Origin: Paralcaligenes sp. KSB-10
GTDB lineage: Bacteria; Pseudomonadota; Gammaproteobacteria; Burkholderiales; Burkholderiaceae_B
Length of the DNA: 64,000 bases
Assembly (NCBI RefSeq): GCF_021266465.1
Contig: NZ_CP089848.1
Span: forward strand, 4,092,001 to 4,156,000
Reading direction: 5' to 3'
Each line of letters starts with the position of its first letter. Position 1 is the first letter of the stretch. Under the pieces are notes generated by a model. That model had not been told where the DNA came from. It was given only the letters and a program-made list of their open reading frames with translations, and made no database searches. Positions 29,289 through 46,224 of the stretch are shown here, piece by piece. Made by a program: the position numbers and the translations under genes.

Positions 29289-30326
29289 TCAGTGCTTTTT
29301 ACTCTTGTGTTTAAGGTCTTGTTCCAGCTGTTCGATTTCCTTCAAATCCGTAGCATCCGCTGCCTTGGCTTCCGCAATACGCCGCTGCTGATCGAAGACC
29401 TCATAACGCTCACGAGCAATCTTTTCCATGTTCTCGCGGCTAGCTGAGCCGGCACCGTCAAGGACGGCCTGGTCGTTGAAAGCCAGCATCCTGTCGATGT
29501 TGTTACGCCAGAAGTCCAAGGTCAGTTCCTTCTGCTGCTTGATTCGCAACTCGGCTTGCTCAAGGAAGATCACCACCAACCTATTCAGTGTGTCTATCTC
29601 ATCAGCTGTCAGGTAGTTTTTGGCGACGATGACATCCTGTTTGCGCACCCGCGAGCCACTCCAGCTGGTCAATGCCATATTGGGCTGGCTGGGATCAGAG
29701 CGTTTCAGAATCAGCTCGGCGGCGGTGTGAGCAGTGGTAGCATAGAGCAGCTTGTTCTGTACCTCGGCAAAGAACAGCGCCGTTTCCCGCTCGCGAGCCC
29801 GGTAGTCAGAACTGAGCGAGAATAGATCACGAACCTTCTGGTAAAAGCGCTTCTCCGAGGCCCGTATGTCCCGGATCCGTTCTAGCAGTTCATCGAAGTA
29901 ATCCCAGCCGCCGGGGTTTTTCAGGCGCTCGTCATCCATCACGAAACCCTTGCGCAAAAACTCCTTGAGGTGGGTGCTGGCCCACTGGCGGAACTGCACG
30001 CCACGAGGCGAACGCACGCGGTAACCGAGAGCCAGGATCAGGTCGAGGTTGTAGTAAGTAATCTTCCGCTTGACCTGCCGGCCACCCTCAGACTGAACTG
30101 TCAAGGATTCCTTGACAGTTGCCTCAGGGGCTAACTCATTGTCCTCAAATATGTTTTTTGCATGCAGGGAGACATTCTGCTTGGTGGTCTGAAACAGTTC
30201 GGCGATTTCCAACTGACTCAACCAGATCGTCTCAGTCTCCACCCGAAGGTGAAGCCGGGTTTGGCCGTCTTCGCTGGTGTACAGAATCAATTCACTCATG
30301 CCCTGTTCCCTTTGGCTTTTTTTCAT
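29289..30326 (-). CDS. RhuM-family protein
   Basis: A 345-residue RhuM (virulence RhuM/KilA-N-associated) protein. It carries WLSQLEIAELFQTTKQNVSLHAKNIFEDNEL, KRKITYYNLDLILALGYRVRSPRGVQFRQWA and a C-terminal coiled coil rich in Glu/Lys. The family is widespread on islands beside restriction systems and Fic proteins, and its biochemical role is unsettled. The start overlaps the Fic stop codon by ATGA, indicating translational coupling; an internal Met at residue 10 is an alternative start. It may be the partner, target or regulator of the Fic protein. Confidence 0.88.
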   Translation of the reverse strand: MKKSQREQGMSELILYTSEDGQTRLHLRVETETIWLSQLEIAELFQTTKQNVSLHAKNIFEDNELAPEATVKESLTVQSEGGRQVKRKITYYNLDLILALGYRVRSPRGVQFRQWASTHLKEFLRKGFVMDDERLKNPGGWDYFDELLERIRDIRASEKRFYQKVRDLFSLSSDYRARERETALFFAEVQNKLLYATTAHTAAELILKRSDPSQPNMALTSWSGSRVRKQDVIVAKNYLTADEIDTLNRLVVIFLEQAELRIKQQKELTLDFWRNNIDRMLAFNDQAVLDGAGSASRENMEKIARERYEVFDQQRRIAEAKAADATDLKEIEQLEQDLKHKSKKH

Positions 30327-31450
30327 CGCTGAAAACCGTAATGACGTACTTCGTAGTTCGTGCTTCGCCCACCGGCGGCAGTTTTCTGAAGCACGTCGTA
30401 CTGCACTAACTCAGTAATGTCGCGAAGTGCTGTGTCTTGCGAACACTTGGCAATCGCAGCCCACTTGCTGGTTGTCAGCTTCCCTTCAAAGCCATCAAGT
30501 AGCCGATTCAGCACCTTAATTTGGCGCTCATTCATCGGAATAATCGCAGCCTGTTGCCAGAACTTCGCCTTGGCCAGCACTTGATCCAGGGTGCCATGTG
30601 CTTGTTCGACTGCTTTTAGCAAAGTTGTCAGGAACCATTCCAGCCAGCCAGTCACATCCATGTCGCCCTTTTGCGTGCGTTCAAGAATGTCGTAATAGGC
30701 TTTGCGTTCCCGCTGAATTTGCGCGGAGAGACTATAGAACCGCTGCGTACTTCCGTCAGCCCGTGCCAGGAGTAGGTCGCCTATGGCACGGGCAACCCGT
30801 CCATTGCCGTCATCTAATGGGTGTAGCGTGACGAACCATAAGTGTCCCAAGCCGGCACGCAGTAGGGTGGGTTCTTTGACGTTGGTGTTATTCAGCCAAG
30901 CCAGGAAGCGCTCCATCTCTGCAGACAGGTGTTTGGCCGGTGGCGCTTCAAAATGAACTTTCTCACGACCAATGGAGCCAGAAATTACTTGCATGGGACC
31001 GGTGGAGTCGTCGCGCCAAGTGCCGACGTGAATGTGGCTCATGCCTGAATAGCCGGTCGGAAACAATGCGGCGTGCCAGCCGAACAGGCGCTCAGCAGTT
31101 AGCGGGGTGGTCGCATGGCTGGTTGCGTCCAGTACCATATCTACTACGCCCTCGACGTGACGATCTACAGGGGCCAGAGCACCGATGTCTATGCCCAGGC
31201 GACGAGCGACCGAGGATCGAACAGAAGCTACATTCAGTGTTTCGCCTTCGATAGCGCTTGTTTGGACGACATCTTGGGTGAGTGCAGACAGGCTGGCTTC
31301 GGCACGCAAGGCCATGCCCACGTCTGCCAAGCGACCGAGTAGCAGTCCTTGGGCGCGGCTAACCGCCGCCAAGGGTTCAGCCAGGGCGGCAAGGTCGTAC
31401 TGCCAGTTTGGCCAATGCGGCGATTGCCAGATATATTCACCGTAGTTCAT
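30323..31450 (-). CDS. Fic-domain protein (AMP-transferase family)
   Basis: A 375-residue Fic protein with the active-site loop HPLDDGNGRVAR (consensus HPFxxGNGR), an intact catalytic His, and a DUF4172-like N-terminus. A TSAIEG motif upstream of the Fic core matches the (S/T)xxxE(G/N) inhibitory helix, so this is a class II, self-inhibited Fic. A C-terminal winged helix (about 310-375) follows. Fic enzymes transfer AMP or other nucleotide parts to protein hydroxyls and serve as toxins or regulators. It is first in a two-gene operon with RhuM. Confidence 0.92.
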   Translation of the reverse strand: MNYGEYIWQSPHWPNWQYDLAALAEPLAAVSRAQGLLLGRLADVGMALRAEASLSALTQDVVQTSAIEGETLNVASVRSSVARRLGIDIGALAPVDRHVEGVVDMVLDATSHATTPLTAERLFGWHAALFPTGYSGMSHIHVGTWRDDSTGPMQVISGSIGREKVHFEAPPAKHLSAEMERFLAWLNNTNVKEPTLLRAGLGHLWFVTLHPLDDGNGRVARAIGDLLLARADGSTQRFYSLSAQIQRERKAYYDILERTQKGDMDVTGWLEWFLTTLLKAVEQAHGTLDQVLAKAKFWQQAAIIPMNERQIKVLNRLLDGFEGKLTTSKWAAIAKCSQDTALRDITELVQYDVLQKTAAGGRSTNYEVRHYGFQR

Positions 31451-31595: not shown

Positions 31596-31916
31596 ATGGA
31601 CCAAGTCATGCAAAGGTTGCGCCAGTTTCGCGATGATCGCGACTGGAAGCAATTTCATAACCCTAAAGATTTGGCGATGGCCTTGAGCATTGAAGCCAGC
31701 GAGTTGTTAGAAGCTTTTCTATGGAAGGCACCGGAAGCAGCCGATACCGAAAAAGTAAAGGAAGAGCTGGCGGATGTGCTGGCCTATGCCCTGCTGCTAT
31801 CCGATGCTTACGGTTTTGATGTTCAAAAAATCGTCTTAGATAAAATTGAGCGCAACGAAGCAAAGTACCCTATAGATAAAGCCAAGGGTAGCGCCAAAAA
31901 ATATACTGAGCTATGA
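31596..31916 (+). CDS. MazG-like nucleotide pyrophosphohydrolase
   Basis: A 106-residue all-helical NTP pyrophosphatase with the paired metal motifs EASELLEAF and EELADVLAYALLLSD (E-x-x-E...E-x-x-D). It resembles the short MazG/RS21-C6 type, which hydrolyses (d)NTPs or modified nucleotides. The stop overlaps the start of the large fusion protein by ATGA, so the two are made together. In a defence setting it could deplete or sanitise nucleotides. Confidence 0.9.
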   Translation: MDQVMQRLRQFRDDRDWKQFHNPKDLAMALSIEASELLEAFLWKAPEAADTEKVKEELADVLAYALLLSDAYGFDVQKIVLDKIERNEAKYPIDKAKGSAKKYTEL

Positions 31917-34099
31917 GTCAGCAGCATCTTGTCGAAGTGAACCGATACGGTTTTTCGGTCGACACTTTGAACGGCATAAAGGCCAACGCCTACGCCACCA
32001 ATAATTGGCCTCTGGTGTATATACTCAGCGATGGCATCACGCACCGTGCCTACGTTGGCGAAACCACCGACACGCTCACTCGTTTAGGCACGCATCTAAA
32101 GCATGTAGACAAAAAATCGTTAACTACGGTGCACCTGATCAGCAGTGAGCGTTTCAACAAATCAGCGACGCTTGATATCGAGTCGGGGCTTATTAAATAT
32201 ATCGCGGCCGACGGTCGCTTCAAGCTACTGAACGGCAATCTGGGTCTGGTCGACCACAATTACTACCAGAAAGACGAGCTTTATTCGCCGATCTTTCGTG
32301 AAACCTGGAACAAATTGCGGGCACAAGGGGTTGCAGAACACTCGCTCGAAGCCATCGATAACTCTGATGTCTTTAAGTACTCGCCCTACAAATCTTTATC
32401 AGTCGATCAACGGCAAGGCTTAATAGAGATAATGCGTGCCCTGCTGAACCCTGGGTTGAAGAATCTGGTGGTGGAAGGTGGCGCGGGAACCGGAAAGTCA
32501 GTTCTTGCCATCTTTCTTTTCAAGCTTATCCATTCCGATAATACCGACCTGAGCTTGCGCGAATTTTCTGAAGAAGAAACTGAGCTGCGCGACCTGCTGA
32601 TGCGGCTTAAACAACGATACATAAAGCCGCGCATGGCGCTGGTCGTACCGATGGGTTCGTTCAGGAGCACTTTGAAAAAGGCGTTCAGGAATGTGGTTGG
32701 CTTGCATCCAGACATGGTCATCAGTCCTTCGGAGCTGGCAAAGCAGCGATACGATATTGTGCTTGTCGATGAGTCACACCGGTTGCGCAAGCGCGTTAAC
32801 TTGGGGGCATACTTTGGCGCCTTCGACAAAGCCTGCACGACACTTGGGCTGGATAAGCACACCTGCAGCGAGGTTGACTGGGTAAGTCAGCAGGCAGATA
32901 AGGCGGTTTTCTTCTATGACCCGAACCAATCAATTAAACCATCTGATGCCAATGCCAGCGATTTCCAGAAAATTAAATCGTCGCCCGAATCGAAGGTAAT
33001 GGCTCTGGTTTCCCAGTTTCGTGTTCAGGGAGGTCAGCACTATGTGGAGTTCATTGACGGTCTTCTGAATACACGCTTGGCAATAGACGAAGAATTCCGC
33101 TCAAAGAAATACGAGTTTTTGTTGTTCGACGACATGTCCGAACTGGTGAAGCAAATCGGACTGAGGAATAAACAATATGGTTTGGCGCGCTTGGTCGCAG
33201 GTTATGCGTGGAAATGGCGATCACAAGATGATCCGGATCAGCACGATATCGAAATTGACGGCGTCCAGCTCTACTGGAATCGCACCAATATCGACTGGAT
33301 CAATTCCGCAGGCGCTGAAAACGACGTTGGCTGTATTCATACTACCCAAGGCTATGACCTTAACTACACTGGCGTCATTTTTGGGAAAGAAATCCGCTAT
33401 GACAAAGAGAGCGGCCAGATTGTTATTTATAAGGACCATTATTTTGACCGCTATGGCAAACAAGCTATAAAAAACCCGGCTGAGCTGAAGCAATACATAC
33501 TGAATATTTACCGAACCATTATGTTGCGCGGCATAAAGGGTGCTTTTGTTTACGCTTGTGATGATGGTCTTCGTGATTATTTGAAGCAGCATATACCCGT
33601 GTACAAACCTGCCGTTGGCAAGTTGATCAAGCCAGTTGCAACGCTAGTACCCTACGTCAATGCCGTGCCTTTCTACGACTTGCAGGCTGCTGCCGGCGGT
33701 TTCAGCGAGTTTCAGCACGTCGAGCATAAAAATTGGGTTGCTGTGCCACAAGGTGTAGTGGCGGGTGAAAACCTATTTGCCTGCCAGGTTGTGGGCGAAT
33801 CAATGAATAAAATTATTCCTAATGGCTCAATCTGCCTTTTTCGTTTGAATCCAGGCGGGAGCCGAAACGGCAAAATCGTGCTGGTTGAGTGCGCCGACAC
33901 CCAAGATGGTGATGCAGGCTCTCGGTACACAGTCAAGGAATACGAAAGTATCAAGATTGATACTGAAGAGGGGTGGCATCACGAGCAAATTCGCTTGAAA
34001 CCACGGTCGACCGATCCAAACCTTGCTACGCTTGAGCTTAGCAACGACGACGAATATCGTTATCGTGTTGTTGGTGAATTCATATGCGTCATCAGTTAA
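31913..34099 (+). CDS. Fusion of GIY-YIG nuclease, DUF2075 (Schlafen-like) helicase and S24/LexA peptidase domains
   Basis: A 728-residue protein with three recognisable parts. Residues about 30-115 resemble a GIY-YIG nuclease (VYILSD...AYVGET, then R, H, a Glu in DIESGL, and Asn in LLNGN). Residues about 155-560 are a DUF2075/Schlafen-type P-loop ATPase (GGAGTGKS at 189-196, VDESHR at 285-290, a TTQGYDLNY motif late). Residues about 600-728 are an S24 self-cleaving peptidase domain with Ser630 (GESMNKIIPNG) and Lys675 (YTVKEYE). The LexA-like tail suggests auto-cleavage or a damage-linked switch. It is coupled to the MazG-like gene. A nucleic-acid-targeting defence role is inferred. Confidence 0.88.
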   Translation: MSQQHLVEVNRYGFSVDTLNGIKANAYATNNWPLVYILSDGITHRAYVGETTDTLTRLGTHLKHVDKKSLTTVHLISSERFNKSATLDIESGLIKYIAADGRFKLLNGNLGLVDHNYYQKDELYSPIFRETWNKLRAQGVAEHSLEAIDNSDVFKYSPYKSLSVDQRQGLIEIMRALLNPGLKNLVVEGGAGTGKSVLAIFLFKLIHSDNTDLSLREFSEEETELRDLLMRLKQRYIKPRMALVVPMGSFRSTLKKAFRNVVGLHPDMVISPSELAKQRYDIVLVDESHRLRKRVNLGAYFGAFDKACTTLGLDKHTCSEVDWVSQQADKAVFFYDPNQSIKPSDANASDFQKIKSSPESKVMALVSQFRVQGGQHYVEFIDGLLNTRLAIDEEFRSKKYEFLLFDDMSELVKQIGLRNKQYGLARLVAGYAWKWRSQDDPDQHDIEIDGVQLYWNRTNIDWINSAGAENDVGCIHTTQGYDLNYTGVIFGKEIRYDKESGQIVIYKDHYFDRYGKQAIKNPAELKQYILNIYRTIMLRGIKGAFVYACDDGLRDYLKQHIPVYKPAVGKLIKPVATLVPYVNAVPFYDLQAAAGGFSEFQHVEHKNWVAVPQGVVAGENLFACQVVGESMNKIIPNGSICLFRLNPGGSRNGKIVLVECADTQDGDAGSRYTVKEYESIKIDTEEGWHHEQIRLKPRSTDPNLATLELSNDDEYRYRVVGEFICVIS

Positions 34100-34109
34100 G
34101 TTGCGTTTT

Positions 34110-35070
34110 TTAACGGAATGGACATTCATGTCGGCTGCCCACTGCCGTTAGTAGACGGAGCCAGTCTGGATCCAAGCCAGCGACCAAAGCATCGGCTTGT
34201 ACAGAAAAATCTTTAGGTTGGCGTTTACGGAGGGCTTCGAGATTGGCGAGCTTCCAGCGCAAGGCGGGAGGGTCGGCAGCATGGGTGCATTGCAGTAAAG
34301 ACCAATCAGGTTCTGCACGCACCAGCCCGGCCAGGAACTGCTTGTGTTTGTCAGTCAATCGCTCGGGAAGGTCTTGCCGTAACCGGGCGCGTGCTTCAAG
34401 TAGCACCTCCAGCGAGCAGTCCACTTCGATCATACCTACAAAAGCACGTTCGTACTCTGCCGTAATATCTTTGTCGTTGCCAAACAGTGCCTCATGCGGT
34501 GGGCGATTGTGTCCAGCCAGGTAGATCACGAAGCATTCAGCCATGTCGTCGCTGAGGCCGCCCGACTCGTACAGTCGCCATATGTCGAACAAGTCGCGTG
34601 GATGTTGGCGATCCAAGGCGGCAACCAGTTTACCGGCGTACAGTTCATCACGAGCGAGGATAGGTGTCTCGAACTCGACACCGAACAGGTCGCAGGCTCT
34701 GGCGCTTAAGGGGCGATGTTCGACCGGCAGCACCGTGCCTCGGAAAACAATATTTACTTCGATTTTGACTTGGCTGGTGTCATTCTCGACGATCAACTTG
34801 GTGTCACTCAGATCCTTGCTGCGAATCAGGCGTGTCTGTACTCCAAGCGGTTCGACCCGTTGGGCGATAGCGGCCAGTTCATCGTTGATGGCTTTCAGCG
34901 CTTCATCGCGTTGTGTTTGCCAAGGCCGATTGAACCACGTCGATATCGACGGATAGACGGGGCATATCTTGTATGAAAAGATTGATCGCCGTGCCTTTCA
35001 TCGCGAAAATATCGTTGTCGAAAACGGCAGGTGTAACGGCCAGCAGCACGCGAACCGTATCAACGTAGGT
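34110..35070 (-). pseudogene. abiEii: AbiEii-type nucleotidyltransferase toxin, frameshifted
   Basis: Two frames together encode a type IV AbiEii toxin. The upstream frame carries the nucleotidyltransferase core (FAMKGTAINLFIQDMPRLSVDIDVV) and then stops soon after ALANTTR. The downstream frame resumes at QTQRDEALKAINDEL and continues through the body to a stop at 34110. A one-base change near 34900-34915 explains this. The first codon after the antitoxin stop is not a good start (ATA where ATG is expected). The toxin is therefore probably dead while the antitoxin is intact. Confidence 0.8.
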
Positions 35071-35071
35071 T

Positions 35072-35830
35072 TTATCCCTGTGGGTTCAGGCTTAATAATG
35101 TGCCGTCGGAGAGCTGGCTCATCCAACGCTTGTTGCTACCCGTGCGCAGGGGATAGCGAGCCAGGAGGTCATCAGAGTTCACCTCCTCGGTTTCCCGCGC
35201 CCAGGTGAGGAACAGGCGAACGGTTTTCACGCTGGTGCAGCAAGCTAGCAACTGGCCGAGCAGTTCCTTGCGTGGTGAACGCAGGCCGTCAAAAAGATTG
35301 CGTGCTTCTTCCAGGCTTTGCCTGGTACCGGCGTCGTACAGCATTTCCAGCACGGCGCGTTCCGCAACCGATATGCGCAGTCCATCGGGTTGGCCGGGCG
35401 GCGTGCCCAAGGTCTTGGCAGGCAGCGCGTTGTCGGACCAGTCGAAAAGGCTGGCGTAGACGTAGCGTGCCGGAAAGCGCGCGGTGAACCAGGCGGGCAG
35501 GGTGTGGCGGACGTCGCCCCACAGCATCAGCGTATCGCGGCTGCCCAGGTTATGCCTCACGCCATGCAAGGCCAGTGCGCTCTTGCCCCCGACATGCAGG
35601 CCAGGCACGTGTTGCTGGAGAAGCTGTAATGCGCCGTAGACGCTGAAGTGGTCATTGGGGAAAGCGTAGACGCCTTGAGCCAAGCGCACGAGCCATCCAT
35701 TGTTGGCATAGTCTGCGGCGAGCTTGGGCGACACCCCTAGCGCGGCCAGGGTGGTCAAGTCAAATGGCGCACCGCGTGGAAGGTCGGATTGCAGCCGTTT
35801 GATTAGATTATGTCGTGTATTTCTACCCAT
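35072..35830 (-). CDS. abiEi: AbiEi-type antitoxin/regulator
   Basis: A 252-residue AbiEi protein. The N-terminal winged helix (LTTLAALGVSPKLAADYANNGWLVRLAQGVYAFP) and the AbiEi core HVGGKSALALHGVRHNLG...LWGD...ISVAERAVLEMLYD are present. In type IV systems AbiEi represses its operon and neutralises the nucleotidyltransferase without direct contact. The start at 35830 (MGRNTRHN) is preferred to the one six codons earlier. Because the toxin gene behind it is frameshifted, it is an orphan antitoxin here. Confidence 0.88.
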   Translation of the reverse strand: MGRNTRHNLIKRLQSDLPRGAPFDLTTLAALGVSPKLAADYANNGWLVRLAQGVYAFPNDHFSVYGALQLLQQHVPGLHVGGKSALALHGVRHNLGSRDTLMLWGDVRHTLPAWFTARFPARYVYASLFDWSDNALPAKTLGTPPGQPDGLRISVAERAVLEMLYDAGTRQSLEEARNLFDGLRSPRKELLGQLLACCTSVKTVRLFLTWARETEEVNSDDLLARYPLRTGSNKRWMSQLSDGTLLSLNPQG

Positions 35831-36304
35831 GAGTGAAAAATAACACAAAATCTAATCATTTTGTTGGGTTTTCATAGGCAGGCTACGCGGCGGCAGTCGT
35901 ACGAGCAATTCACGTTGTTGACGTAGATGCCTCTAGTTATCCGGAATTTCCGGACAACTAAGTTTTGTTCCAGCCCATTGGTGCCAGAAAAGAGCGCATC
36001 GGAAAAACTTATACGCGGCGAGTGCGCCGCCTAAAACGCCGACTGTACCGCCAACCGTGTCCGCTGCCCTGGCTTTCGCGGCATAAACGGCGTCCTCCCC
36101 GCCAGGCGGGTCCCCTCCATATATTCCACGGTCCTGTTCATCAGCCCCGGCCAGCAGTTCAGCACGGCAAGGCGACGAACTCACGGCAACGGCGGCAACC
36201 CCGCAGGAACCGTATTGCTGCGAACGCCGAAAACCTACGATCAGGCTCGGAATCTTCGGCCCCGGTCAGCAGGAAAACCAACCGGTATTTGAAGGGATAG
36301 GACT
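35831..36304. other. 474-base stretch without a confident gene
   Basis: Between the antitoxin and RadC. An 83-codon minus-strand ORF (35933-36184) has a short Gly-rich hydrophobic segment (VGGTVGVLGGALAAYKFF) but no family match and no good ribosome-binding site. A longer plus-strand ORF over the same DNA is very Arg/Pro-rich and looks spurious. Promoters for the two flanking genes must lie here; none was identified clearly. Confidence 0.4.
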
Positions 36305-36838
36305 ATGGAACACGTTAACCACAATGCAGCTTTGGGCTATGACAACATGAACGCAGGGCAGACGCTTTATGTGCGCAGTCCGTCAGGCCGCTATCAGGCC
36401 GCGACCGATTCGCACGTATTGGCCGCCGCCAGGGTTGCGGCTGAAAGCTTGATTGGTGATCGGGCGGATATGGGAAACCCGAGTGCTGTAAAACATTATT
36501 TTCAGGCCAAACTGTCGGGCATGGGGCACGAGGTAGCCGCTGTGCTGTATTTGAACAGCCAGTTTAAGGTAATCCGGTACATGGAAATGAGCCATGGCAC
36601 GTTGACGCAGGCCAGCGTATACCCGCGCGAAATCGTTAAAACAGCGCTTCGCCTTGATGCTGCTGCAATCATCATGTCGCATAACCACCCCAGTGGCGTA
36701 CCCGAACCCAGCGAGGCTGATTTGGCTCTGACGCGCCACTTAAAGCATGCCTTGGCGCTGATTGATGTTCGTTTGCTGGATCACATCATCGTGACGGGCT
36801 CTGGAATAACTTCGTTGGCTGAGCGAGGTCAAGTGTAA
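36305..36838 (+). CDS. radC: RadC-family JAB/MPN-domain protein
   Basis: A 177-residue RadC (YeeS/YkfG-like) protein with the JAMM metal motif in MSHNHPSGVPEPSEADLALT and the upstream Glu region. The form is short, lacking the N-terminal helix-hairpin-helix of chromosomal RadC, as is usual for plasmid and island copies. Despite the name, a DNA-repair role is not established; the fold is that of a metalloprotease or nuclease. It is a common passenger of integrative elements and fits the island setting. Confidence 0.9.
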   Translation: MEHVNHNAALGYDNMNAGQTLYVRSPSGRYQAATDSHVLAAARVAAESLIGDRADMGNPSAVKHYFQAKLSGMGHEVAAVLYLNSQFKVIRYMEMSHGTLTQASVYPREIVKTALRLDAAAIIMSHNHPSGVPEPSEADLALTRHLKHALALIDVRLLDHIIVTGSGITSLAERGQV

Positions 36839-37108
36839 GGCTGGTACTGTGAGCAATGCGGCTATGCCGCCGTGCTACGCTTGTATGCAGTAAATCGTGC
36901 ACAGAGTTATTCAACCCTTATCGGATTTATCAGTTGGTGCCTTTGGCAAGGGCGTTGTGACAATCTGCATGGGCTGTGGTATCACTATCTTCTGCCGGGG
37001 TCACGGTGCGGCCAGTTTTACATCGAGTGCATTGACTGCTCGCTACGCGAGCTGCTGCTGATACAGCCCATGTGGCCGGTCATTTTTAGGCGTGCCGCAG
37101 ATGCATAG

Positions 37109-39193
37109 CTACTTTTGCAACAAGTCCTGCAGAAATTCTGACTCCGGTTTCATCGCGGACACATGCAGTTGATCACGCGCACGGGTGCATGCCACGTATA
37201 GTAACTGGCGCTCAGTGTTATAAATTTCAATCAATTCGGCTTCATCGGCGGCAGTGTCGATGCGCACTTGTGAAGGAATAATTTCATCATCGCAGGCCAT
37301 CACAGCAACCACACGGAATTCCATGCCCTTTGCCAGGTGCATGGTGGTAATGCTGACGAAACCCTCTTCCGTCGCCATGTCTTTGCCGAGCACGCGTCCC
37401 CGCAAGCCAGCAGCCTTTACTGCCGCCTGTGCGCGTGAGAGTTCGTTTTCAGATCGGACGAAGACGCCGATTTCCTGCGGCGATACGCCGCTGATGTTGC
37501 ATTGCTTCAACCACACGCCGACAGCTTGGATTTCCGCCTCGGCATCGGCGTAACTGCAGATGACCGGTTCCGGCCCATTGAACACTGAAACCGTGCCCTT
37601 GCGGCTTTCGGCATTTCCGTCCACATCGGATACTTCAGGGCCGAGCAGCTGATCGGCCTGCGAACGAATTTGGTGCGACGTGCGGTAATTGATCTTGAGC
37701 GTTCGTGAGCGACCACGCACATCCACGCCCAAGGATTTCCACGAGAATGGTGTCTGGAAGATGCGTTGGCCGAGATCACCGGCGAAGAACAGGGAATTAG
37801 CGCGGTTGCCGGCAATCGCAGCAAGAAAGCGCAATTGCTGCACTCCGATGTCCTGCGCTTCGTCCACCACGATGTAATCGAATACGGGGTGCGTGCGTTT
37901 GAGCATAGATTCTGCCAGCTTGGCGAACATTTCCGGCGCGGAGATCTTGCCAGCCAGCTTCAATTGCTCCTTTACGGTGGCGAACGCCTGCCAGTACAAG
38001 GCGCGCTGCGTTTCCGGCAGGCGCGTCTTGCGGCCCAGTCGTTTCGCGTCGCGATAGGCCTCCCAACTGTCAATTTGCCAAGCGTCCACCACATCATTCC
38101 ATTCAGATAGCAGGAACGCGCTATTCGCTTTCAGGCCATCCACCTGGGTGGCAGCGGCCTTCAACAGTGTAGAAATTTCATCGCGGCTGGTGAGTGCAGG
38201 CTTGCCGAACTCCGCAGAATACAGGCGAATGCTGATGGCATCCATCGCGACTACGTCGATACGTTCGCCGAGCTTTGGGGTGTTCCAGATTAGTCGGTAC
38301 AAATTACCCCGCAGTGCGTTGGCTAGCGTTTCTGAAAACGTGGAAAGCAGTACACGCGCGTCTTCGTCCTCGCGTGCTAAATGCACGGCTCGGTGCAAAG
38401 CCACTACTGTCTTGCCTGTACCTGCTGAGCCTGAGACGCGTGCCGCACCGTTGTAATGGCGTTCGACCAGTTGGCGCTGCGCGGGGTGGAGGAACACTGT
38501 CCACTTATCCCATGGGTATTCCAGGGCGCGAGCCAGCTCGTCCGTATCGGACATGATGCGGAAACGGCGTTGTGCATCCGGGTGCAGGAATGGATCATCA
38601 CCCTTACTTGCAATTTCGGGCAATGCGGGCGTCCCACCGGTTGCCAGTTCGAGCAAGGCTTCTGCAGCTTCGCCGGGCAGGTGGTCGGCCAATTCCAGCA
38701 GTGAATTTTCGTCGGCGACCTTTACATCAGCTAGCCATTCCTGTGGTACGCCATAGGCTAGCAGCTGCGTATCGCTATATGGCAGGAACAGTTTTGGCTC
38801 CTGCTGCTTGAACGGCCTGCTGTCATCGACGTACTTCGGAACAAGGATTTCCTCGACACGCTCACGTATTTCAACGAGTTGTGCCGCGCCGGTGGTCGGG
38901 TGCACCTCAAGCTTGCGACGCTCGGCCCATTGGTAGGCCTTGTCGTGGTGATTGACGTAGCACAACAGCAGGCTACCGGCGGCCTTGTGGACGATCAGGC
39001 GGATGTCACGATTGACCCGCACCGACCAGAAATTCGGGTCTTTGGCCTTATCGAGCTTGTGGAAGCTCATGCCCTTACCGGTAGGATCCATCTGCAGGTC
39101 AAAGGCAGTGGTCTTAGCCGCCTTCTGCTCATCGCCGGTCAGGCGCGCGAGGCTGGTGGTGAACGTGTCGGCGATACGGAATTCCATTCTCAT
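37109..39193 (-). CDS. RelE/ParE-like domain fused to a UvrD-type superfamily 1 helicase
   Basis: A 694-residue protein. Residues 1-95 read like a RelE/ParE-superfamily toxin fold (ADTFTTSLARLTGDEQ...FHKLDKAKDPNFWSVRVNRDIRLIVHK...YVNHHDKAYQWAERRKLE). From about 230 it is a UvrD/Rep helicase with GSAGTGKTVVALH (255-267), VVDEAQD (about 447), the motif-III-like GDLGQRIFQ, KINYRTSHQIR and the late motif VACTRAR. It is the last gene of the four-gene minus-strand operon and overlaps the preceding gene by ATGA. It may unwind or process DNA for the restriction system; the role of the toxin-like part is unknown. Confidence 0.88.
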   Translation of the reverse strand: MRMEFRIADTFTTSLARLTGDEQKAAKTTAFDLQMDPTGKGMSFHKLDKAKDPNFWSVRVNRDIRLIVHKAAGSLLLCYVNHHDKAYQWAERRKLEVHPTTGAAQLVEIRERVEEILVPKYVDDSRPFKQQEPKLFLPYSDTQLLAYGVPQEWLADVKVADENSLLELADHLPGEAAEALLELATGGTPALPEIASKGDDPFLHPDAQRRFRIMSDTDELARALEYPWDKWTVFLHPAQRQLVERHYNGAARVSGSAGTGKTVVALHRAVHLAREDEDARVLLSTFSETLANALRGNLYRLIWNTPKLGERIDVVAMDAISIRLYSAEFGKPALTSRDEISTLLKAAATQVDGLKANSAFLLSEWNDVVDAWQIDSWEAYRDAKRLGRKTRLPETQRALYWQAFATVKEQLKLAGKISAPEMFAKLAESMLKRTHPVFDYIVVDEAQDIGVQQLRFLAAIAGNRANSLFFAGDLGQRIFQTPFSWKSLGVDVRGRSRTLKINYRTSHQIRSQADQLLGPEVSDVDGNAESRKGTVSVFNGPEPVICSYADAEAEIQAVGVWLKQCNISGVSPQEIGVFVRSENELSRAQAAVKAAGLRGRVLGKDMATEEGFVSITTMHLAKGMEFRVVAVMACDDEIIPSQVRIDTAADEAELIEIYNTERQLLYVACTRARDQLHVSAMKPESEFLQDLLQK

Positions 39194-40179
39194 GCCTTCC
39201 TCTTCGGCCCATCGCCGATGGTGGCCGATATTCTTTGGGCAAGCTGGTTTTTCAATGCATCAATATTTTCCCACGCGATATGGTTGTATTGGCGCGTGTC
39301 GAAGTGAACATTCTTCAGCGCATCGGCGCGGCAAGTGAAAATCACTGGCATGTTGAGGCCATGTGCAAAACCCGCCTCGTAATACACCCCGCCGCGCGCA
39401 CCGCTATCTCCTTGCGTGAAATCTGCGACAACGAAACGCGACCTCTTTATCTCCGCGATGATTTCGTCGTCAATTTTGTTGTTGTGATCTTTCTGATCTA
39501 TCCGTATTGGCTCGTAGCCAGCATCTCGAATGGCCGGGGCAATGCCTTTTTCATACGCTTCGCTCATGGACTGGTCGAACCACATGGCAACGAATGCTTG
39601 ACTCGATGCTGTACCGCTGCCATCTAGGGCTGCCAGCCGGGCATACCCAGGCGGTCTAAGCATTAGTTCATGAGTGTCGCTAACCTCGTCAAGAGTTCTC
39701 GGTTTTTTGACGCGTTGCTCAATCCATTTTTCCGTATGTGCATATTCGGCGAGGGTAATCACCTCGGAAAGTTTGCGAGAGGATGTCCATGCCATCAGTG
39801 CATTGCCGTCATCCGGTTTGCTGGCTTTTTCTGGCGCACAAAACATTACGACAGTGCCCAGTAGCTCGCTCCTGCTTGCGAGATAGCGTAACAGGTCGTC
39901 TGCCCTCTCGTCGACGGCTGGGAAACTAAGGCCTTTCAAGTCCTCAAGAGTTTGGTTGGAAATCTCCGGGCGGATGACACCAAGCCGATGTTGCCTGATC
40001 AGCCAAGAGGTCAGAAGAACCTTCCCCTTATCGTCCAGATTGGCAAGCATGGCGTTCGCCGTGCCAGAGATGAAGAACTCTCCGCCAGCCCTCGGCGAAT
40101 CAACGGCGACGCCATCACGCCCGGCCACATCAATAGGTGTGGCCGGGGTTCCCCAGATCGGACAAGTTGTATTCGCCAT
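39190..40179 (-). CDS. Protein with C-terminal nucleoside-deoxyribosyltransferase/TIR-like domain
   Basis: A 329-residue protein starting MANTTCPIWGTPATP. It has a CPIWG-type N-terminal motif, an uncharacterised middle, and from about residue 194 a Rossmann-like NDT/TIR-like domain. That domain contains SQAFVAMWFDQSM, a basic-helix stretch, RFVVADFTQGDSGARGGVYYEAGFAHG with candidate catalytic Glu268, and a closing VIFTCR strand. NDT-fold and TIR proteins cleave N-glycosidic bonds (nucleotides or NAD+) and often act as abortive-infection effectors. Its start overlaps the methyltransferase stop by ATGA and its stop overlaps the helicase start. The longer ORF form to 40299 lies within the methyltransferase gene and was rejected. 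Confidence 0.82.
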   Translation of the reverse strand: MANTTCPIWGTPATPIDVAGRDGVAVDSPRAGGEFFISGTANAMLANLDDKGKVLLTSWLIRQHRLGVIRPEISNQTLEDLKGLSFPAVDERADDLLRYLASRSELLGTVVMFCAPEKASKPDDGNALMAWTSSRKLSEVITLAEYAHTEKWIEQRVKKPRTLDEVSDTHELMLRPPGYARLAALDGSGTASSQAFVAMWFDQSMSEAYEKGIAPAIRDAGYEPIRIDQKDHNNKIDDEIIAEIKRSRFVVADFTQGDSGARGGVYYEAGFAHGLNMPVIFTCRADALKNVHFDTRQYNHIAWENIDALKNQLAQRISATIGDGPKRKA

Positions 40180-43118
40180 CACTGCACCTTGAACACCTTC
40201 ATCACCTCGTCCCCAAGATGATTGATAACCTTGACCGCAAATCGTCCGGTGCTCGGTTTCGGGAACGGGCGCGAGGTATCGCTGTTGAGCGTCGCCCAAG
40301 CATCGGCGTCGATTTCAGACTTGAGGGTGGTCTTCAGAGCTTTGTATGGGTCATTCGCGCCGAGGAAGTACGCATGGCGTACGAAGAAGGACTCTTCGTT
40401 GTAATCGGTGTCCAGGAACCAACAGGCAATGCCTTCTGCGCCGTCGCTGCGGACTTCGCCAGTGCTGGGATGGAATACATCCACACCGTTGATGCGCACC
40501 ACCAGTTGTCCGTCTGCGGGCACCTCGATGATGTCGCGTTTGCCGTCGTATCGGCGGATGCTGCGGCCCTGGGTGTCCAGCACGTCCACATCCGGCTCGC
40601 CGAAGATCACGAACAGGTTGCCCTTGCCGGTGTTCTTCAGGTCTTCGGCCATGTGCAGGTCGGCGTTCATTCGCGCCTTAAGCACATTGATGCGGCCCAG
40701 CTTACTAAACTCGCTGGCGGGTGCGTCGTAGTTGAAGGCGCAAGCGATGAGTACATCGAAGTTGGCATCGCCCGCCTCGCGGGCAGCATCGACCAGGTCG
40801 GCGCGGGTAACAGTGCCGAATTCTGGGCCGATCATAATGCCGGTACGCTTCACCTGTCCGTTTTCCAGATAGCGGCCTTCGGCGCAGACTAGTTCGCCCG
40901 GCCACGGTTCTAATGAGATGAATTCGATCTTGTCGGACTTGTGCGCCTGCTGCACACCGGCGGTGCGCAGGTTGTCCAGGATTAGGCTGGCGAAGTCCTG
41001 GCCGTATTCGGCCTGCGTCTCGGCTACATGATCAATCAGGTTGTCTTCTTCGTCGACGCCCAGCACACGGTGCGGCGACAGCGATTCTACGGTAAAGGGG
41101 CCAGCCACGCGCACGCGCTTCTTGTCCTCATACGGTTTGTCGTAGAGGTATTCAAACCCGGCCTTGGCGGCGATGGAGGCATCGATTTCTTTCTGCCGGG
41201 CGATGCGTTGCTGCCACCAGTCAGTGTGCAATTTTTTGGCGGTCGTGCTCCACTTGGCATCAGCTTCACGGGGAATTTCCCATTCCTGCCAGTTTGTTTT
41301 TAGTGCCGTGTTGAGTTGTTCGCGAAGTGATTCGAGCTTGGACTGGAAGGTATCCCAGATGACGTCGACTTCGGTATTGTTGGCGATGGATTTGAGGGTG
41401 ACGTGCGGCACCCGCTCATAGACGAAGCCGTGGGTGATATTGCCGTAGGTGGGCCGGCTGACCGGCGCACTACGGGTGATTTCGGCTTCCTTCAACTGAC
41501 CTTCGAGGGAATCGGCGAGTAGGTAGAATGGGTAACGCGCACCCATGATGCGTGCACGGGCTAACGCCAGCGCCACGCGCGAGGTGTCGATGGTAATCCA
41601 GCGGCGCCCCAATTGCTCTGCGACGTAAGCGGCGGTACCGGAGCCGCAAGTGGGATCAAGGATTAAATCACCGGGGTCAGTAGCCATCAACAAGCATCTT
41701 TCGATAACCTTGGGAAGCGTCTGAACTACATACAGTTTTTGCAATGTTTGATTGTCGCCAGAACTAGCATCCGACCAAACATTAGCGTGCGGGAAGGCAC
41801 CGAAATCGTCTATTGCGCGCAAGTACGTGAGTGTCTTCCCGATACCTCTACCAAACAATCTTCCTGCATTAGAAAGACGGTTAAGTCCAACTAACGAAGT
41901 CTTCCAATGCTGGTTACTTCCACAGGGATATTCGACACCTTGAAAAGTGAATGGCTTAGAGCCATCTGGAGTGGAACCTTGTGATCTCAAGTTGTCGATA
42001 CGAAATACACGATATCCATCAGGAATGCTCTCTGCCCCTGACTTCTCGTCTTTCGTTAGATTCCTCAGCTCGCCCTCTGGAGTCATCAGCAATGTGTATT
42101 CGGCAGCGCCCTCGCCGCCAACATTTTTTACTCGATAAGGCTGTCTGTACTTCAATTTTTTTAGATCGCGTGCAAACCAAATCAAATAGTCAGTTACATT
42201 TGGAAGTGTTGTTGATGCGTGTCCGGTCGTCTTGGTGAATGTAATTAGAGATATGAAGTTTGCATCACCAAACACCTCGTCTAGAACTGCTCGCACGCGA
42301 TGAACATTCTCATCTCCAATCTGCACGAAAATAGAACCTGACTCGGTCAACAAATCCCGTGCGACCATCAGACGGTCGCGCAGATAGGTCAGATAGGTAT
42401 GGATGCCATCCCGCCAAGTATCCCGGAACGCCTTTACCTGCTCGGGCTCGCGCGTGATGTGTGCGGCGTTGCCGTCCTTCACATCGCGGCTGGTGGTTGA
42501 CCACTGGAAGTTACTGTTGAACTTGATGCCGTAAGGCGGATCGAAATAAATACACTGCACTTTGCCGCGCAGCCCCTCGCGCTCTGTCAGCGATGCCATC
42601 ACCTGCAGGCTGTCACCCAGGATCATGCGGTTCTGCCAGTGACCTTCGTGCTGATAAAACTCGGTGCGGTCCGTACCTTCGGGTAGGCCGTTGAAGTCAC
42701 CGAACAAATCCAGCGTCTGGGGCTGCGGCGCGACGGCTTCGCGCTGTTCTTCGGTTTGGCGGCGCAGTTCGTCGATCAGCACCTTGGGTTTTACCTTCTC
42801 CTGAATGTACAGCGGCGGCGCATTGACGACCAGATCAGACCAGTCTTGCTGATCCTTGCCACGCCAGATAAGTTGCGGGTCAAGGTCGCGGTTAAGGCGC
42901 TGCTGGAATTCCAGAGGCATCTTGCCCGTGTCGTGCAAGGCGCACAATTCGTCCAGCCATTGACGGTTGGCGCGCGGGTACGTCACCTGAACCGGTGCCT
43001 GCTCGTGGTGTTGCATCACCGACTGGTGCTCCACCGTCGGAATGTTCTTGCGCTTGGCTTCGGTGTGTGTGATTTGCTCGATACTCTTGCCGGGTGTTTG
43101 CGTTTTCTTGGTCGCCAT
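40179..43118 (-). CDS. Type III-like restriction system DNA methyltransferase (Mod)
   Basis: A 979-residue beta-class amino-methyltransferase. The catalytic DPPYGIKF lies at 193-200 and the SAM-binding motif LDPTCGSGTAAYVAEQLGRRW at about 486-506, in the order used by type III Mod subunits and N6-adenine or N4-cytosine enzymes. A linker of about 290 residues between them probably holds the target-recognition domain. At 979 residues it is clearly longer than typical Mod (about 600-650), with a long C-terminal part lacking a motif I recognise. It starts two bases after the Res gene ends, so the two are one operon. Confidence 0.9.
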   Translation of the reverse strand: MATKKTQTPGKSIEQITHTEAKRKNIPTVEHQSVMQHHEQAPVQVTYPRANRQWLDELCALHDTGKMPLEFQQRLNRDLDPQLIWRGKDQQDWSDLVVNAPPLYIQEKVKPKVLIDELRRQTEEQREAVAPQPQTLDLFGDFNGLPEGTDRTEFYQHEGHWQNRMILGDSLQVMASLTEREGLRGKVQCIYFDPPYGIKFNSNFQWSTTSRDVKDGNAAHITREPEQVKAFRDTWRDGIHTYLTYLRDRLMVARDLLTESGSIFVQIGDENVHRVRAVLDEVFGDANFISLITFTKTTGHASTTLPNVTDYLIWFARDLKKLKYRQPYRVKNVGGEGAAEYTLLMTPEGELRNLTKDEKSGAESIPDGYRVFRIDNLRSQGSTPDGSKPFTFQGVEYPCGSNQHWKTSLVGLNRLSNAGRLFGRGIGKTLTYLRAIDDFGAFPHANVWSDASSGDNQTLQKLYVVQTLPKVIERCLLMATDPGDLILDPTCGSGTAAYVAEQLGRRWITIDTSRVALALARARIMGARYPFYLLADSLEGQLKEAEITRSAPVSRPTYGNITHGFVYERVPHVTLKSIANNTEVDVIWDTFQSKLESLREQLNTALKTNWQEWEIPREADAKWSTTAKKLHTDWWQQRIARQKEIDASIAAKAGFEYLYDKPYEDKKRVRVAGPFTVESLSPHRVLGVDEEDNLIDHVAETQAEYGQDFASLILDNLRTAGVQQAHKSDKIEFISLEPWPGELVCAEGRYLENGQVKRTGIMIGPEFGTVTRADLVDAAREAGDANFDVLIACAFNYDAPASEFSKLGRINVLKARMNADLHMAEDLKNTGKGNLFVIFGEPDVDVLDTQGRSIRRYDGKRDIIEVPADGQLVVRINGVDVFHPSTGEVRSDGAEGIACWFLDTDYNEESFFVRHAYFLGANDPYKALKTTLKSEIDADAWATLNSDTSRPFPKPSTGRFAVKVINHLGDEVMKVFKVQ

Positions 43119-43119
43119 C

Positions 43120-46100
43120 TCAGTGTTCCTTGTTTCCCGGCGCAGCCGTTTCGATCAATTGGTTGAACTGTGCCTCTATTCTTTTGGCGAAGTCTTCTTG
43201 CATTTCGTATACATCACCGAACTCGGCGAAGGCCCAGCGTCCGTGCGTGCCGAGGTGGTTTACGCCCGGAATCCAGTAGGTATCCATGGTGGACTTCTTT
43301 TCCTTAGCGTCCTCGCGCCGGTAGCCTTTGATCTCGACGATCAGGTTCAGCGGGTCTTCCTTTCCGCAACCGTTGTCCACTTGCACGATAAAGTCCGGGA
43401 TGTAGACGCGGTTAGCCGAGCCGGACCGATAAGGAACTTCCAGGCCGAGGTTGTGGTTCTTGGTGTAGGTCAGTACTTTTGGGTGCGATTCGGCAACGCG
43501 GCAGAATTCGCTCTCCCAGCCACTATCCAGAATAACCCAGTTGACCTGGTTCCTTGGTTGGTTATGCACTCCGATGGTTTCCCAGCGGTCGCTGCTAGGG
43601 CGCGAGGTGTTGAAGCGCACATGCTCGGTGCTGCCGGTCGGGTTGAACGGGTCGAGGATGGCCTTGATTTTCCGACCTTTCTCTAACTCCTTCGCGGTAA
43701 TGCCCTTGGTGATGCGCTGGCAGGCCATGTCCGCCAGTTCGCAATACATCAGTTGTGCCGGGTAGGTTCCACCCTTGCATTCCAGGCACTCGTCTAGCCA
43801 CTGGCGCACGATGCGCTTGAGCTGGCCGAATAGAGCGATCGGTGCATCCTGGCCTTGATCACGCCAATGCTGAAACAGCAAATGCTTGGTTAGCTCCATC
43901 AGCAAGGTGGACTGGCGTACGTCTCCCAGATGCTTGATGTCCAGCTCCACTGCTTCGCCGATAATTCCAGCGTTGTGGGTCTTGGTCGCGCCGACCATAT
44001 CCGGCGTCAGGGTGAGGTGGTGGTCGGCGCTGAATTCGGCTTCGAGTTGCTCCTCCGGCAATTCGACGCGATAGCCCTGCACGCGCGGAAACTGGATTTC
44101 CAGATGATCGCGTTCTGGGCGCAGTGCCTTGACTGTGATGGTTTCGCGAGGTTTGGGCGGTGTGACAACAACCGGCTTGGCGGTGAAGTCGAAAGGAATG
44201 CCGAATATGTCGGCATACTCCACGTCGAATTGGCCTTGCTCGTTCAATTCATAGGACTGGCGCCGTAGGGCACGTCCAATGACCTGCTCGCACAACAACT
44301 GGGTGCCAAACGCTCGCACACCGAGAATGTGGGTAACGGTATTGGCATCCCATCCCTCTGTGAGCATGGACACCGATACGACGCAGCGAATTTGCTCTCC
44401 CAAACGACCTTGCTTGCCGACGGTATTCATTACCTCGCGCAGCAATTCACTATCACTTAGGTTTTCGGCTTGCCTCCGGTCTCCGGTGCGTTCGATGATC
44501 TCGCGTTTGAAGCGTTCGATCTCATCGGCGGCCATGGCTCGGAAGTTGTCATCCAGTGCTTCCCCTGATTCGAGCTGCTCGCTGTCTATCAGCAAGGTAT
44601 TGGGGCGCGCCAATGGCTCGCCATGTTCGTCAAAGTTGCGGAACAGTTCTAGTCTTCCTGGTACGCGTGCGATGGAACCATCTTCGTTTGTGCGTTCGAA
44701 ACCGGAGATGTAATCGAACACCAGTTTGGAAGTCGCGGTGTTGTTGCACACTACGATGAAGCACGGCGGCACGTTAATGCCAGCTTGCTCCCAGGCTTCG
44801 TAAGTTTTGCGGTAATGGCCGTACAGCGCTTCTAGCGCGGTCTGTAGCTCCACCGGGATCGCCAATGGATCGAGCGGAGCGTTCTTGCCGCGCCCCTTTT
44901 TCGGCATCTTTTTGCCGATGTGCTTCCAGAGTTCGCGGTATATAGGCATATCCGCGCCTGGGATGTTGTCAGCCACTGGCACGCGCGGCAATTTGACGAT
45001 GCCGCATTCGATGGCGTCCATCAGTGAAAAATCGCTCATAGTCCAGGGGAATAGAGTGCCTTCCACATAGCCAGAGCCAGCGAGGAAGAATGGCGTGGCC
45101 GAAAGATCAAACACCTGTTGCAGGCCCAGCTTCCGGTTCACAGCTTCTAAACCAGCAATCCACAACCGTGCAGCTTCATTGTTTTCCTCGGCCTCGGCTT
45201 TCTGATCTTTATCGAGATCTTTGTCGTCCTCGACAGCGTGCGGCTTTTCTCGATAGCAATGGTGTGCCTCGTCGTTGATTGCGAGGATGTTTTTCATCCC
45301 CATCAGTTCCGGCATTACCCGCTGGAGCATCTGGCCCTCAGTTTCCAGCGTATTCAGCTCGCTCCCTGTCCGGCCTTGCAACAAACGCCGGCCTCCCTTT
45401 GACAACTCCATGCACTCGCGAAGTTTGAAAGCGTGGTAGTTCGTGATGACAATCTTGGTTTTGTCCAGATCAGGTAGCATATCGCGCGGCACGATCTCGC
45501 GATTGCCGTAGTAGCTGTCCGCATCATTAGGCAGTAGCACACGCAGGCGATCCTTGATGGTGAGGCCAGGGGCGACCAGCAGAAAGCCACGGGTAAATTT
45601 CTTGCTCTGGGGGTGCCGCACAGCATTGACCGTTTGCCAAGCAATGAGCATGGCCATGACTGTGGTCTTACCTGCGCCAGTGGCCAACTTCAACGCTAGG
45701 CGCAGCAGGCCAGGATTGGCATCATCGCTGACCTTCTTCAAATGATCGAGAAAGCGTCCACCATTTTTTCCAAGCTGCGGGACGACTTCTGTCAACCAAA
45801 TAGCAGTTTCAGCCGCTTCGACTTGGCAGAAGAACGGGCGTACGCCCATGAACTTGTGATTGCGCCAGTGCTCCAGTAGACGGGCTGTCTCGGGCGTAAC
45901 GCGCCATTGTGACGGTGGCAATTGACGCCAAGCATCGACCTCGCGCCGCACAGCATTGATTAGTTCCGAATGTTGGTAACGCTGTTGGTCGTCAGCCAGG
46001 TTCTCGACTTCATCCAGCGCCAGAGTAGCCTGTTCGCTACGACCCCGACGGGGCTTCGGGATCGGGCTAATAAAGCTAGATGCGCGACGTGACTCGACGA

Positions 46101-46224
46101 TTTTCTGGGTGGGTTGTCCCTTGTCGTCGAGCTCCCAGTGCCGGAACGGGTAGTCATAAGGCGAGTTGAGGATAGGCTGCTTGAAAAATTGGTCACTCAC
46201 TTCCTTCGTCCCCTGATCCAACAT
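43120..46224 (-). CDS. Type III-like restriction endonuclease/helicase (Res)
   Basis: A 1034-residue superfamily 2 helicase-nuclease. Walker A LATGAGKTTVMAML is at 180-193, the DEAH box INDEAHHCY at about 313, and the later motifs are around SVSMLTEGWDANTV and EQVIGRALRR. The C-terminus carries a PD-(D/E)xK nuclease: PDFIVQVD at 943 and IVEIKGYRRE with E-x-K at about 962-964. It should form the Res2/Mod2-type complex with the following gene and cleave unmethylated DNA after ATP-driven movement. It is the first gene of the operon. It is larger than classical Res, as is its Mod partner. Confidence 0.92.
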   Translation of the reverse strand: MLDQGTKEVSDQFFKQPILNSPYDYPFRHWELDDKGQPTQKIVESRRASSFISPIPKPRRGRSEQATLALDEVENLADDQQRYQHSELINAVRREVDAWRQLPPSQWRVTPETARLLEHWRNHKFMGVRPFFCQVEAAETAIWLTEVVPQLGKNGGRFLDHLKKVSDDANPGLLRLALKLATGAGKTTVMAMLIAWQTVNAVRHPQSKKFTRGFLLVAPGLTIKDRLRVLLPNDADSYYGNREIVPRDMLPDLDKTKIVITNYHAFKLRECMELSKGGRRLLQGRTGSELNTLETEGQMLQRVMPELMGMKNILAINDEAHHCYREKPHAVEDDKDLDKDQKAEAEENNEAARLWIAGLEAVNRKLGLQQVFDLSATPFFLAGSGYVEGTLFPWTMSDFSLMDAIECGIVKLPRVPVADNIPGADMPIYRELWKHIGKKMPKKGRGKNAPLDPLAIPVELQTALEALYGHYRKTYEAWEQAGINVPPCFIVVCNNTATSKLVFDYISGFERTNEDGSIARVPGRLELFRNFDEHGEPLARPNTLLIDSEQLESGEALDDNFRAMAADEIERFKREIIERTGDRRQAENLSDSELLREVMNTVGKQGRLGEQIRCVVSVSMLTEGWDANTVTHILGVRAFGTQLLCEQVIGRALRRQSYELNEQGQFDVEYADIFGIPFDFTAKPVVVTPPKPRETITVKALRPERDHLEIQFPRVQGYRVELPEEQLEAEFSADHHLTLTPDMVGATKTHNAGIIGEAVELDIKHLGDVRQSTLLMELTKHLLFQHWRDQGQDAPIALFGQLKRIVRQWLDECLECKGGTYPAQLMYCELADMACQRITKGITAKELEKGRKIKAILDPFNPTGSTEHVRFNTSRPSSDRWETIGVHNQPRNQVNWVILDSGWESEFCRVAESHPKVLTYTKNHNLGLEVPYRSGSANRVYIPDFIVQVDNGCGKEDPLNLIVEIKGYRREDAKEKKSTMDTYWIPGVNHLGTHGRWAFAEFGDVYEMQEDFAKRIEAQFNQLIETAAPGNKEH

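Follow-up and report, generated by a model that had tools for sequence, protein, structure and literature searches.

A MazG-like hydrolase gene coupled to a GIY-YIG/Schlafen-type helicase/S24 fusion: a conserved gene pair with a possible restriction-type role

The 64,000-nucleotide stretch of the Paralcaligenes sp. KSB-10 genome analyzed here (contig NZ_CP089848.1, positions 4,092,001 to 4,156,000; "the window") contains a short open reading frame (ORF) for a MazG-like protein, directly followed by a long ORF for a 728-residue protein (Table 1). The TGA stop codon of the former overlaps the ATG start codon of the latter as ATGA, and this -4 nt overlap is the usual form among relatives, found at 23 loci of the GIY-YIG-bearing class. 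Both ORFs lie where an original prediction, made from the DNA sequence alone, had placed them, and the triple fusion that it had described retains the catalytic residues of its GIY-YIG nuclease, Schlafen group 3 (SLFN-g3) helicase and S24 parts.

Table 1. Features of the two-gene unit and of its flanks in the window
Feature	Coordinates	Strand	Basis or remark
MazG-like, DCTPP1/RS21-C6-type dNTP pyrophosphohydrolase (106 aa)	31596..31916	+	Pfam PF12643, E 5.5e-20
GIY-YIG/SLFN-g3 SF1 helicase/S24 fusion (728 aa)	31913..34099	+	ORF, Pfam, model folds
Stop/start overlap ATGA, 4 nt, translational coupling	31913..31916	+	Sequence
Predicted GIY-YIG nuclease domain, about residues 28-111; Y36, Y47, R57, E90, N107 catalytic	31994..32245	+	Motif, and PF01541 in homologs
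Schlafen group 3 SF1 helicase, residues 184-550	32462..33562	+	PF09848, 200 bits
S24 (LexA-type) tail, residues about 585-728	33665..34096	+	PF00717, residue conservation, model fold
Predicted scissile bond Ala594-Gly595 (LexA AG/UmuD CG type)	33692..33697	+	Alignment to LexA site
RhuM (PDC-S05)	29289-30326	-	Flanking defense-type gene
Fic (DUF4172)	30323-31450	-	Flanking defense-type gene
AbiEii/AbiEi, RelE-like/UvrD fusion, TIR-effector-like, type III R-M (mod, res)	34110..46224	-	Flanking; R-M assigned by eye from ORFs

The central part of the 728-residue protein matches PF09848 well above the Pfam cut-off (200 bits versus 24) and carries Walker A (GGAGTGKS, residues 189-196) and Walker B (DESH, residues 286-289) motifs. 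In an AlphaFold model of the protein (mean pLDDT 82), residues 161-566 superpose on UvrD (Z 20.7) and SLFN11 (Z 17) in a fold search; a sequence search with the whole protein against solved structures gave no useful match. PF01541 (GIY-YIG) matches residues 35-72 of the window protein below the cut-off (18 bits versus 22.6) and is matched by 23 of 24 homologs (best E 1.2e-9), and the motif residues Y36, Y47, G49, R57, E90 and N107 are invariant among 38 homologs. On motif and profile together, residues ~28-111 are assigned to a GIY-YIG domain. Pfam detected no PLD nuclease, SF2 motor or DUF3427 in the protein, and no modified-base-reading domain was recognized in it.

The C-terminal region matches Peptidase_S24 (PF00717) at residues 586-678 with an E value of 8.5e-8. 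In the model, residues 583-728 adopt the fold of the LexA cleavage domain and superpose on 1jhe with a Z of 15.2 and an rmsd of 2.3 across 120 residues, with 8gms (Z 15.1) and 8gmu (Z 14.8) as other matches; LexA and λ repressor as solved with RecA filaments are among the fold matches. The closest sequence match among the S24 domains of LexA, UmuD and λ CI is weak (best E 0.0018). The Ser630/Lys675 dyad had been numbered correctly in the original prediction and is present in 52/52 (Ser) and 51/52 (Lys) tailed homologs, a Lys675-to-Glu exchange being the lone exception. Residue 594 is Ala in 45 and Cys in six of these 52 proteins, so that 51 carry one or the other, and Gly595 is likewise kept in 51. 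These conserved catalytic and scissile residues rule out a degenerate fold. Judged by its residues, the tail is quite probably competent for self-cleavage, which would depend on RecA with roughly even probability; a LexA fold, as modeled here, does not by itself prove RecA-stimulated cleavage.

We considered what such a cut might do, as the original prediction had left it open whether the tail releases or switches off the enzyme. The product of a cut at 594/595, residues 1-594, would still contain the whole nuclease and helicase, the latter extending to about residue 560. Naturally tailless homologs have this same form and keep all other catalytic residues, and release is therefore the likelier of the two outcomes; if the protein cleaves itself, activation has the better prospects by a modest measure. 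In the converse case, the tail could serve as a safety catch, with damage to host DNA by the nuclease giving rise to RecA filaments that trigger self-cleavage, break an S24 dimer and turn the enzyme off. S24 domains of the LexA type do dimerize, and the self-cleavage apparatus is complete, but the product should be a complete enzyme by comparison with the tailless homologs, and we regard the safety catch as quite unlikely.

The tail is an optional module that has been repeatedly gained and lost: the helicase tree calls for 14 or more changes in its presence, versus only one in the label of the N-terminal nuclease. A tail profile applied to about 450 genomes (threshold E<1e-9) found matches in 5/249 Pseudomonadota and 9/198 Bacteroidota genomes, and every match lay inside a long nuclease-helicase, either of the SLFN type or of a PLD-SF2-DUF3427 type.

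Four genomes of the same family hold full-length copies of the fusion with 74-76% identity, each with MazG alongside, and the combination of fusion and MazG is therefore not a chance one. MazG adjoins all 31 loci that encode both GIY-YIG and S24 domains (window included), which come from Pseudomonadota, Bacteroidota and Firestonebacteria. The proposed two-gene unit is thus real and conserved, with the pairing of MazG and DUF2075-S24 recurring across phyla; the original prediction had staked itself on MazG linkage and the S24 dyad not being absent from most homologs, and it survived, as MazG is found at 31/31 loci and the dyad in all tails but one. By a scan of named genomes, the GIY/SLFN/S24 architecture occurs in Alcaligenaceae, Marinobacter, Alcanivoracaceae and Vreelandella, in Flavobacterium, Mucilaginibacter, Aquirufa, Robiginitalea, Marivirga and Chryseobacterium, and in a Firestonebacteria MAG. 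Copies from Bacteroidota share 46-56% identity with the betaproteobacterial window protein, which points to horizontal spread. Relatives are carried on plasmids, and a single-sequence scan of viral contigs returned one fragment only.

Among 398 Pseudomonadota genomes sampled broadly, each of the eight strong PF09848 matches belonging to the helicase clade of the window adjoins MazG (a truncated frame in one case, L112), and none of the other SLFN-g3 proteins examined in that sample has MazG beside it. MazG and helicase distances covary, with a Mantel r of 0.87 in the GIY class and 0.48 in a sister class, and 0/2000 shuffles reached values as high. Part of this covariation may stem from common species history; transfer across phyla argues for co-transfer of the two genes. 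In the sister class, GIY-YIG is replaced by an N-terminus with invariant residues D80, E98, K100 and Q101, by which we take the nuclease to be PD-(D/E)XK-like. S24-tailed members of this class have MazG at 19/29 loci, with several of the others cut by contig ends, and MazG is missing from many PD-(D/E)XK-class loci, for example in a Bacillaceae clade. The unit of GIY-YIG, S24 and MazG as originally described is therefore real but too narrowly drawn: the tail is optional, the nuclease replaceable, and the tail also occurs on SauUSI-like proteins with NUDIX partners (see below).

Three loci depart from the common layout. In Halomonas PA16-9 (L012:3149-5619), helicase and S24 tail lie in different frames, with MazG downstream; a separate S24 gene was rejected in favor of a likely frameshift, since the two frames overlap and the fusion is intact in the close relatives L061 and L101. 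At L073:4346-7209, the place of MazG is taken by a gene for a PARG-like macrodomain, recognized by eye, which shares a 4-nt overlap with the gene of a PD-(D/E)XK-SLFN helicase. On a Marivirga plasmid (L016:2626-6978), the sequence after MazG encodes a PD-(D/E)XK-SLFN helicase that is split over several frames.

The same S24 tail is found on SauUSI-like PLD-ResIII-DUF3427 proteins of about 1130-1160 residues, with scissile site and Ser-Lys dyad kept in 4/4 aligned. One tailed protein that we tested matched the PADLOC mREase_IV model with an E value of 1e-223, and its partner matched PDC-S07. A NUDIX hydrolase gene lies upstream, with overlapping ends, of 5/5 tailed SauUSI-like genes read, and upstream of six of seven genes for DUF3427 proteins in the Bacteroidota genomes searched; the NUDIX partner is nearest to 3gwy, a putative CTP pyrophosphohydrolase, and to MutT/NudG models. 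Going by these sequences, the pair of NUDIX and S24-tailed SauUSI-like protein is a second predicted self-cleaving restriction-type system in Bacteroidota. Tailed NUDIX-SauUSI loci in this phylum are L120:1557-5385, L122:2032-5887, L123, L124 and L125.

SauUSI-like genes also lie close to the MazG-SLFN type itself, within about 6 kb at 7/105 loci (L015, L072, L013, L080, L083, L088 and L093, the last lacking MazG), versus about 0.02 expected by a rough estimate that takes DUF3427 in about 5% of genomes, a 12-kb flank and 4 Mb, and ignores general clustering of defense genes. At these seven loci, the SauUSI-like genes are mostly co-directional and close. On a Lactiplantibacillus plasmid (L015:249-5644), NUDIX, SauUSI, MazG and GIY/SLFN genes form one co-directional row, and the Solobacterium locus (L072:2025-7401) has the same gene order with a helicase of the PD-(D/E)XK class.

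The surroundings of the unit, where the original prediction had suggested looking for defense genes, gave a divided picture, with a defense island in the window (Table 1) and housekeeping flanks in several genomes. RelE-like/UvrD and Fic genes are neighbors common to the window and to loci L002 and L003; flanks in other genomes hold AIPR, mad3, M78/DUF4411 and integrase genes as well as housekeeping ones such as glyQS, and a bulk neighborhood scan for defense enrichment had a mixed outcome. In the window, the UvrD-type helicase (37109-39193, minus strand) has a RelE/HigB-like N-terminus by a weak Pfam match (E 0.056), and a copy of it adjoins the MazG operon of L002. The product of the gene at 39190-40299 (minus strand) has a nucleoside 2-deoxyribosyltransferase-like C-terminus and matches a PADLOC TIR effector model (3.5e-10). 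In Marinobacter, the flanks of L025, L027 and L034 appear to include glyQ and glyS (glycyl-tRNA synthetase), three members each in the bulk scan, and the site beside glyQS is possibly a common insertion site. Genomic context thus supports a defense role without deciding the matter. Loci among housekeeping genes, together with the SF1/UvrD-like helicase fold, the LexA-like tail and a house-cleaning partner, would also suit a nuclease-helicase accessory to DNA repair or the SOS response, whose partner sanitizes the nucleotide pool and for which an anti-phage role is not primary. That reading is very unlikely in our view, because the patchy spread of the tail profile, the identity between copies from Bacteroidota and betaproteobacteria, plasmid carriage of relatives, nuclease-domain swapping and adjacency to type IV restriction genes are all typical of defense. 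Anti-phage action of the pair is, on these sequence patterns, highly probable.

As the original prediction had held, the unit cannot be assigned to a named type. PADLOC 2.0 lists no unit of MazG with a nuclease-helicase, and the window MazG has no match in it. A known defense system was rejected for the 728-residue protein, whose PADLOC matches are partial only: it matches Nhi (E 5.8e-11) and AbiO (E 2.5e-10), and a full-length Nhi match that includes the nuclease part is absent, the best stretch covering residues 277-415 (39.7 bits). Nhi and AbiO are likewise nuclease-helicases with a related SF1 helicase region, but only the helicase part matches, and they lack the GIY-YIG domain and the S24 tail. 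To our knowledge, no MazG partner is defined for either. Human SLFN11 and SLFN14 share the group 3 helicase fold (Z about 17), whereas the 728-residue protein lacks the Schlafen RNase core, its own nuclease being GIY-YIG and that of the sister class PD-(D/E)XK-like. The tail resembles the S24 domains of LexA, UmuD and λ CI in fold, Ser-Lys dyad and Ala(Cys)-Gly scissile site, but is attached to a nuclease-helicase rather than to an HTH repressor or polymerase accessory protein. We found no description of the pair in PADLOC 2023 or, among openly searchable papers, in those on DUF2075 with MazG, COG3410 and bacterial Schlafens; PMC12839542 cites a preprint from 2025 that deals with the part of bacterial Schlafens in defense against phages.

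The closest functional parallel may be the SauUSI type (mREase_IV), likewise a one-chain nuclease-helicase, in some cases with the same S24 tail, in most Bacteroidota copies with a dNTP pyrophosphohydrolase partner, and seven times adjoining MazG-SLFN-type loci. SauUSI-type enzymes have a PLD nuclease, an SF2 motor and a domain reading modified bases, whereas the 728-residue protein has GIY-YIG, an SF1 Schlafen motor and no recognized reader, so that the kinship would be one of working alike only.

The MazG partner had been predicted to be a pyrophosphohydrolase, and its fold family and metal ligands agree, but DCTPP1-like is a better description of it than E. coli-type MazG, which is absent among the solved relatives found. 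Its nearest solved chains are 4qgp (E 9e-19) and, as the nearest named protein, dCTP pyrophosphatase 1 (DCTPP1; E 1.3e-17). The metal ligands E33, E36, E57 and D60 and the pocket residues W17, W43 and Y64 are conserved among 81 partners. Taking the DCTPP1 pocket residues from PMC4491611 and mapping their numbers via our own alignment, we find equivalents of Trp47, Glu63, Glu66, Trp73, Glu95, Asp98 and Tyr102 conserved in the partners; His38 of the same list, which contacts cytosine (PMC4491611), is not conserved, being Leu8 in the window and L/I/V across partners. The two proteins thus share the all-alpha MazG fold family, the metal ligands, the Trp47/Trp73/Tyr102 equivalents and a similar C-terminus (YP....GSA.KYT.L), but the window protein has Leu for His38, is bacterial and is coupled to a nuclease-helicase. 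DCTPP1 hydrolyzes 5-methyl-dCTP, and dCTP as well (PMC4491611), and Orf135 (NudG) of E. coli and RS21-C6/DCTPP1 are sanitation enzymes with specific 5-methyl-dCTP hydrolysis (PMC10742078). By analogy, 5-modified dCTP is a substrate of the window MazG with a chance that we put at about one half.

SauUSI cleaves 5mC and 5hmC DNA (PMC7913695), and the S. aureus enzyme is a single polypeptide that is sufficient alone (PMC3874153), so that a hydrolase is not needed for cutting and a sanitation role for it is conjecture. Two unrelated folds related to 5-methyl-dCTP hydrolases stand beside two unrelated nuclease-helicases, which suggests that the role of the hydrolase is to prevent modified cytosine from entering host DNA. 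Alternatively, MazG might destroy dCTP, or all dNTPs, upon infection and starve the phage while the nuclease-helicase degrades DNA, in the manner of dCTP deaminase and dGTPase defenses. The activity of DCTPP1 on dCTP, the intact metal-binding residues of MazG, and its tight coupling and covariation with the helicase would fit such depletion; but house-cleaning enzymes of the MazG and NUDIX kinds are widespread, a host that steadily co-translated the two genes with no visible switch would itself be starved, and SauUSI functions without a hydrolase (PMC3874153). We therefore consider nucleotide depletion unlikely.

Returning to sanitation, we suggest, with some reservation, that the pair may form a compact restriction-type defense module of a MazG sanitizer and a nuclease-helicase held in check by its tail. 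The GIY-YIG/SLFN-g3 protein would be an ATP-driven nuclease-helicase attacking foreign DNA, whose likeliest target would be DNA with modified (5-substituted) cytosine, as for SauUSI-like type IV enzymes; that modified DNA is the target is, by this analogy, conceivable but somewhat short of an even chance. The co-translated DCTPP1-like MazG would hydrolyze 5-modified dCTP, such as might be salvaged when phage DNA is degraded, thereby keeping host DNA free of the modified base and the host from becoming a target. Where the protein has a tail, this LexA-type S24 domain would restrain the enzyme until RecA filaments, as the DNA-damage signal during infection, elicit self-cleavage at Ala594-Gly595, yielding a product (residues 1-594) equivalent to the catalytically complete tailless homologs. 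A broader picture, speculative and on balance rather doubtful, is that a mobile LexA-type tail has been joined to two unrelated classes of restriction nuclease-helicase (SLFN-SF1 and SauUSI-SF2), turning them into proenzymes that are set free upon the DNA-damage signal that infection gives; a dedicated dNTP sanitizer in either class (MazG or NUDIX) would shield host DNA from becoming a target.

If true, these proposals would place a restriction-type nuclease under LexA-like autoproteolysis, with a link at the protein level between SOS sensing and immunity. A nucleotide-pool enzyme would then be the self-protection arm of modification-dependent restriction, and MazG with DUF2075, a large family in bacteria and archaea, would have a candidate function.
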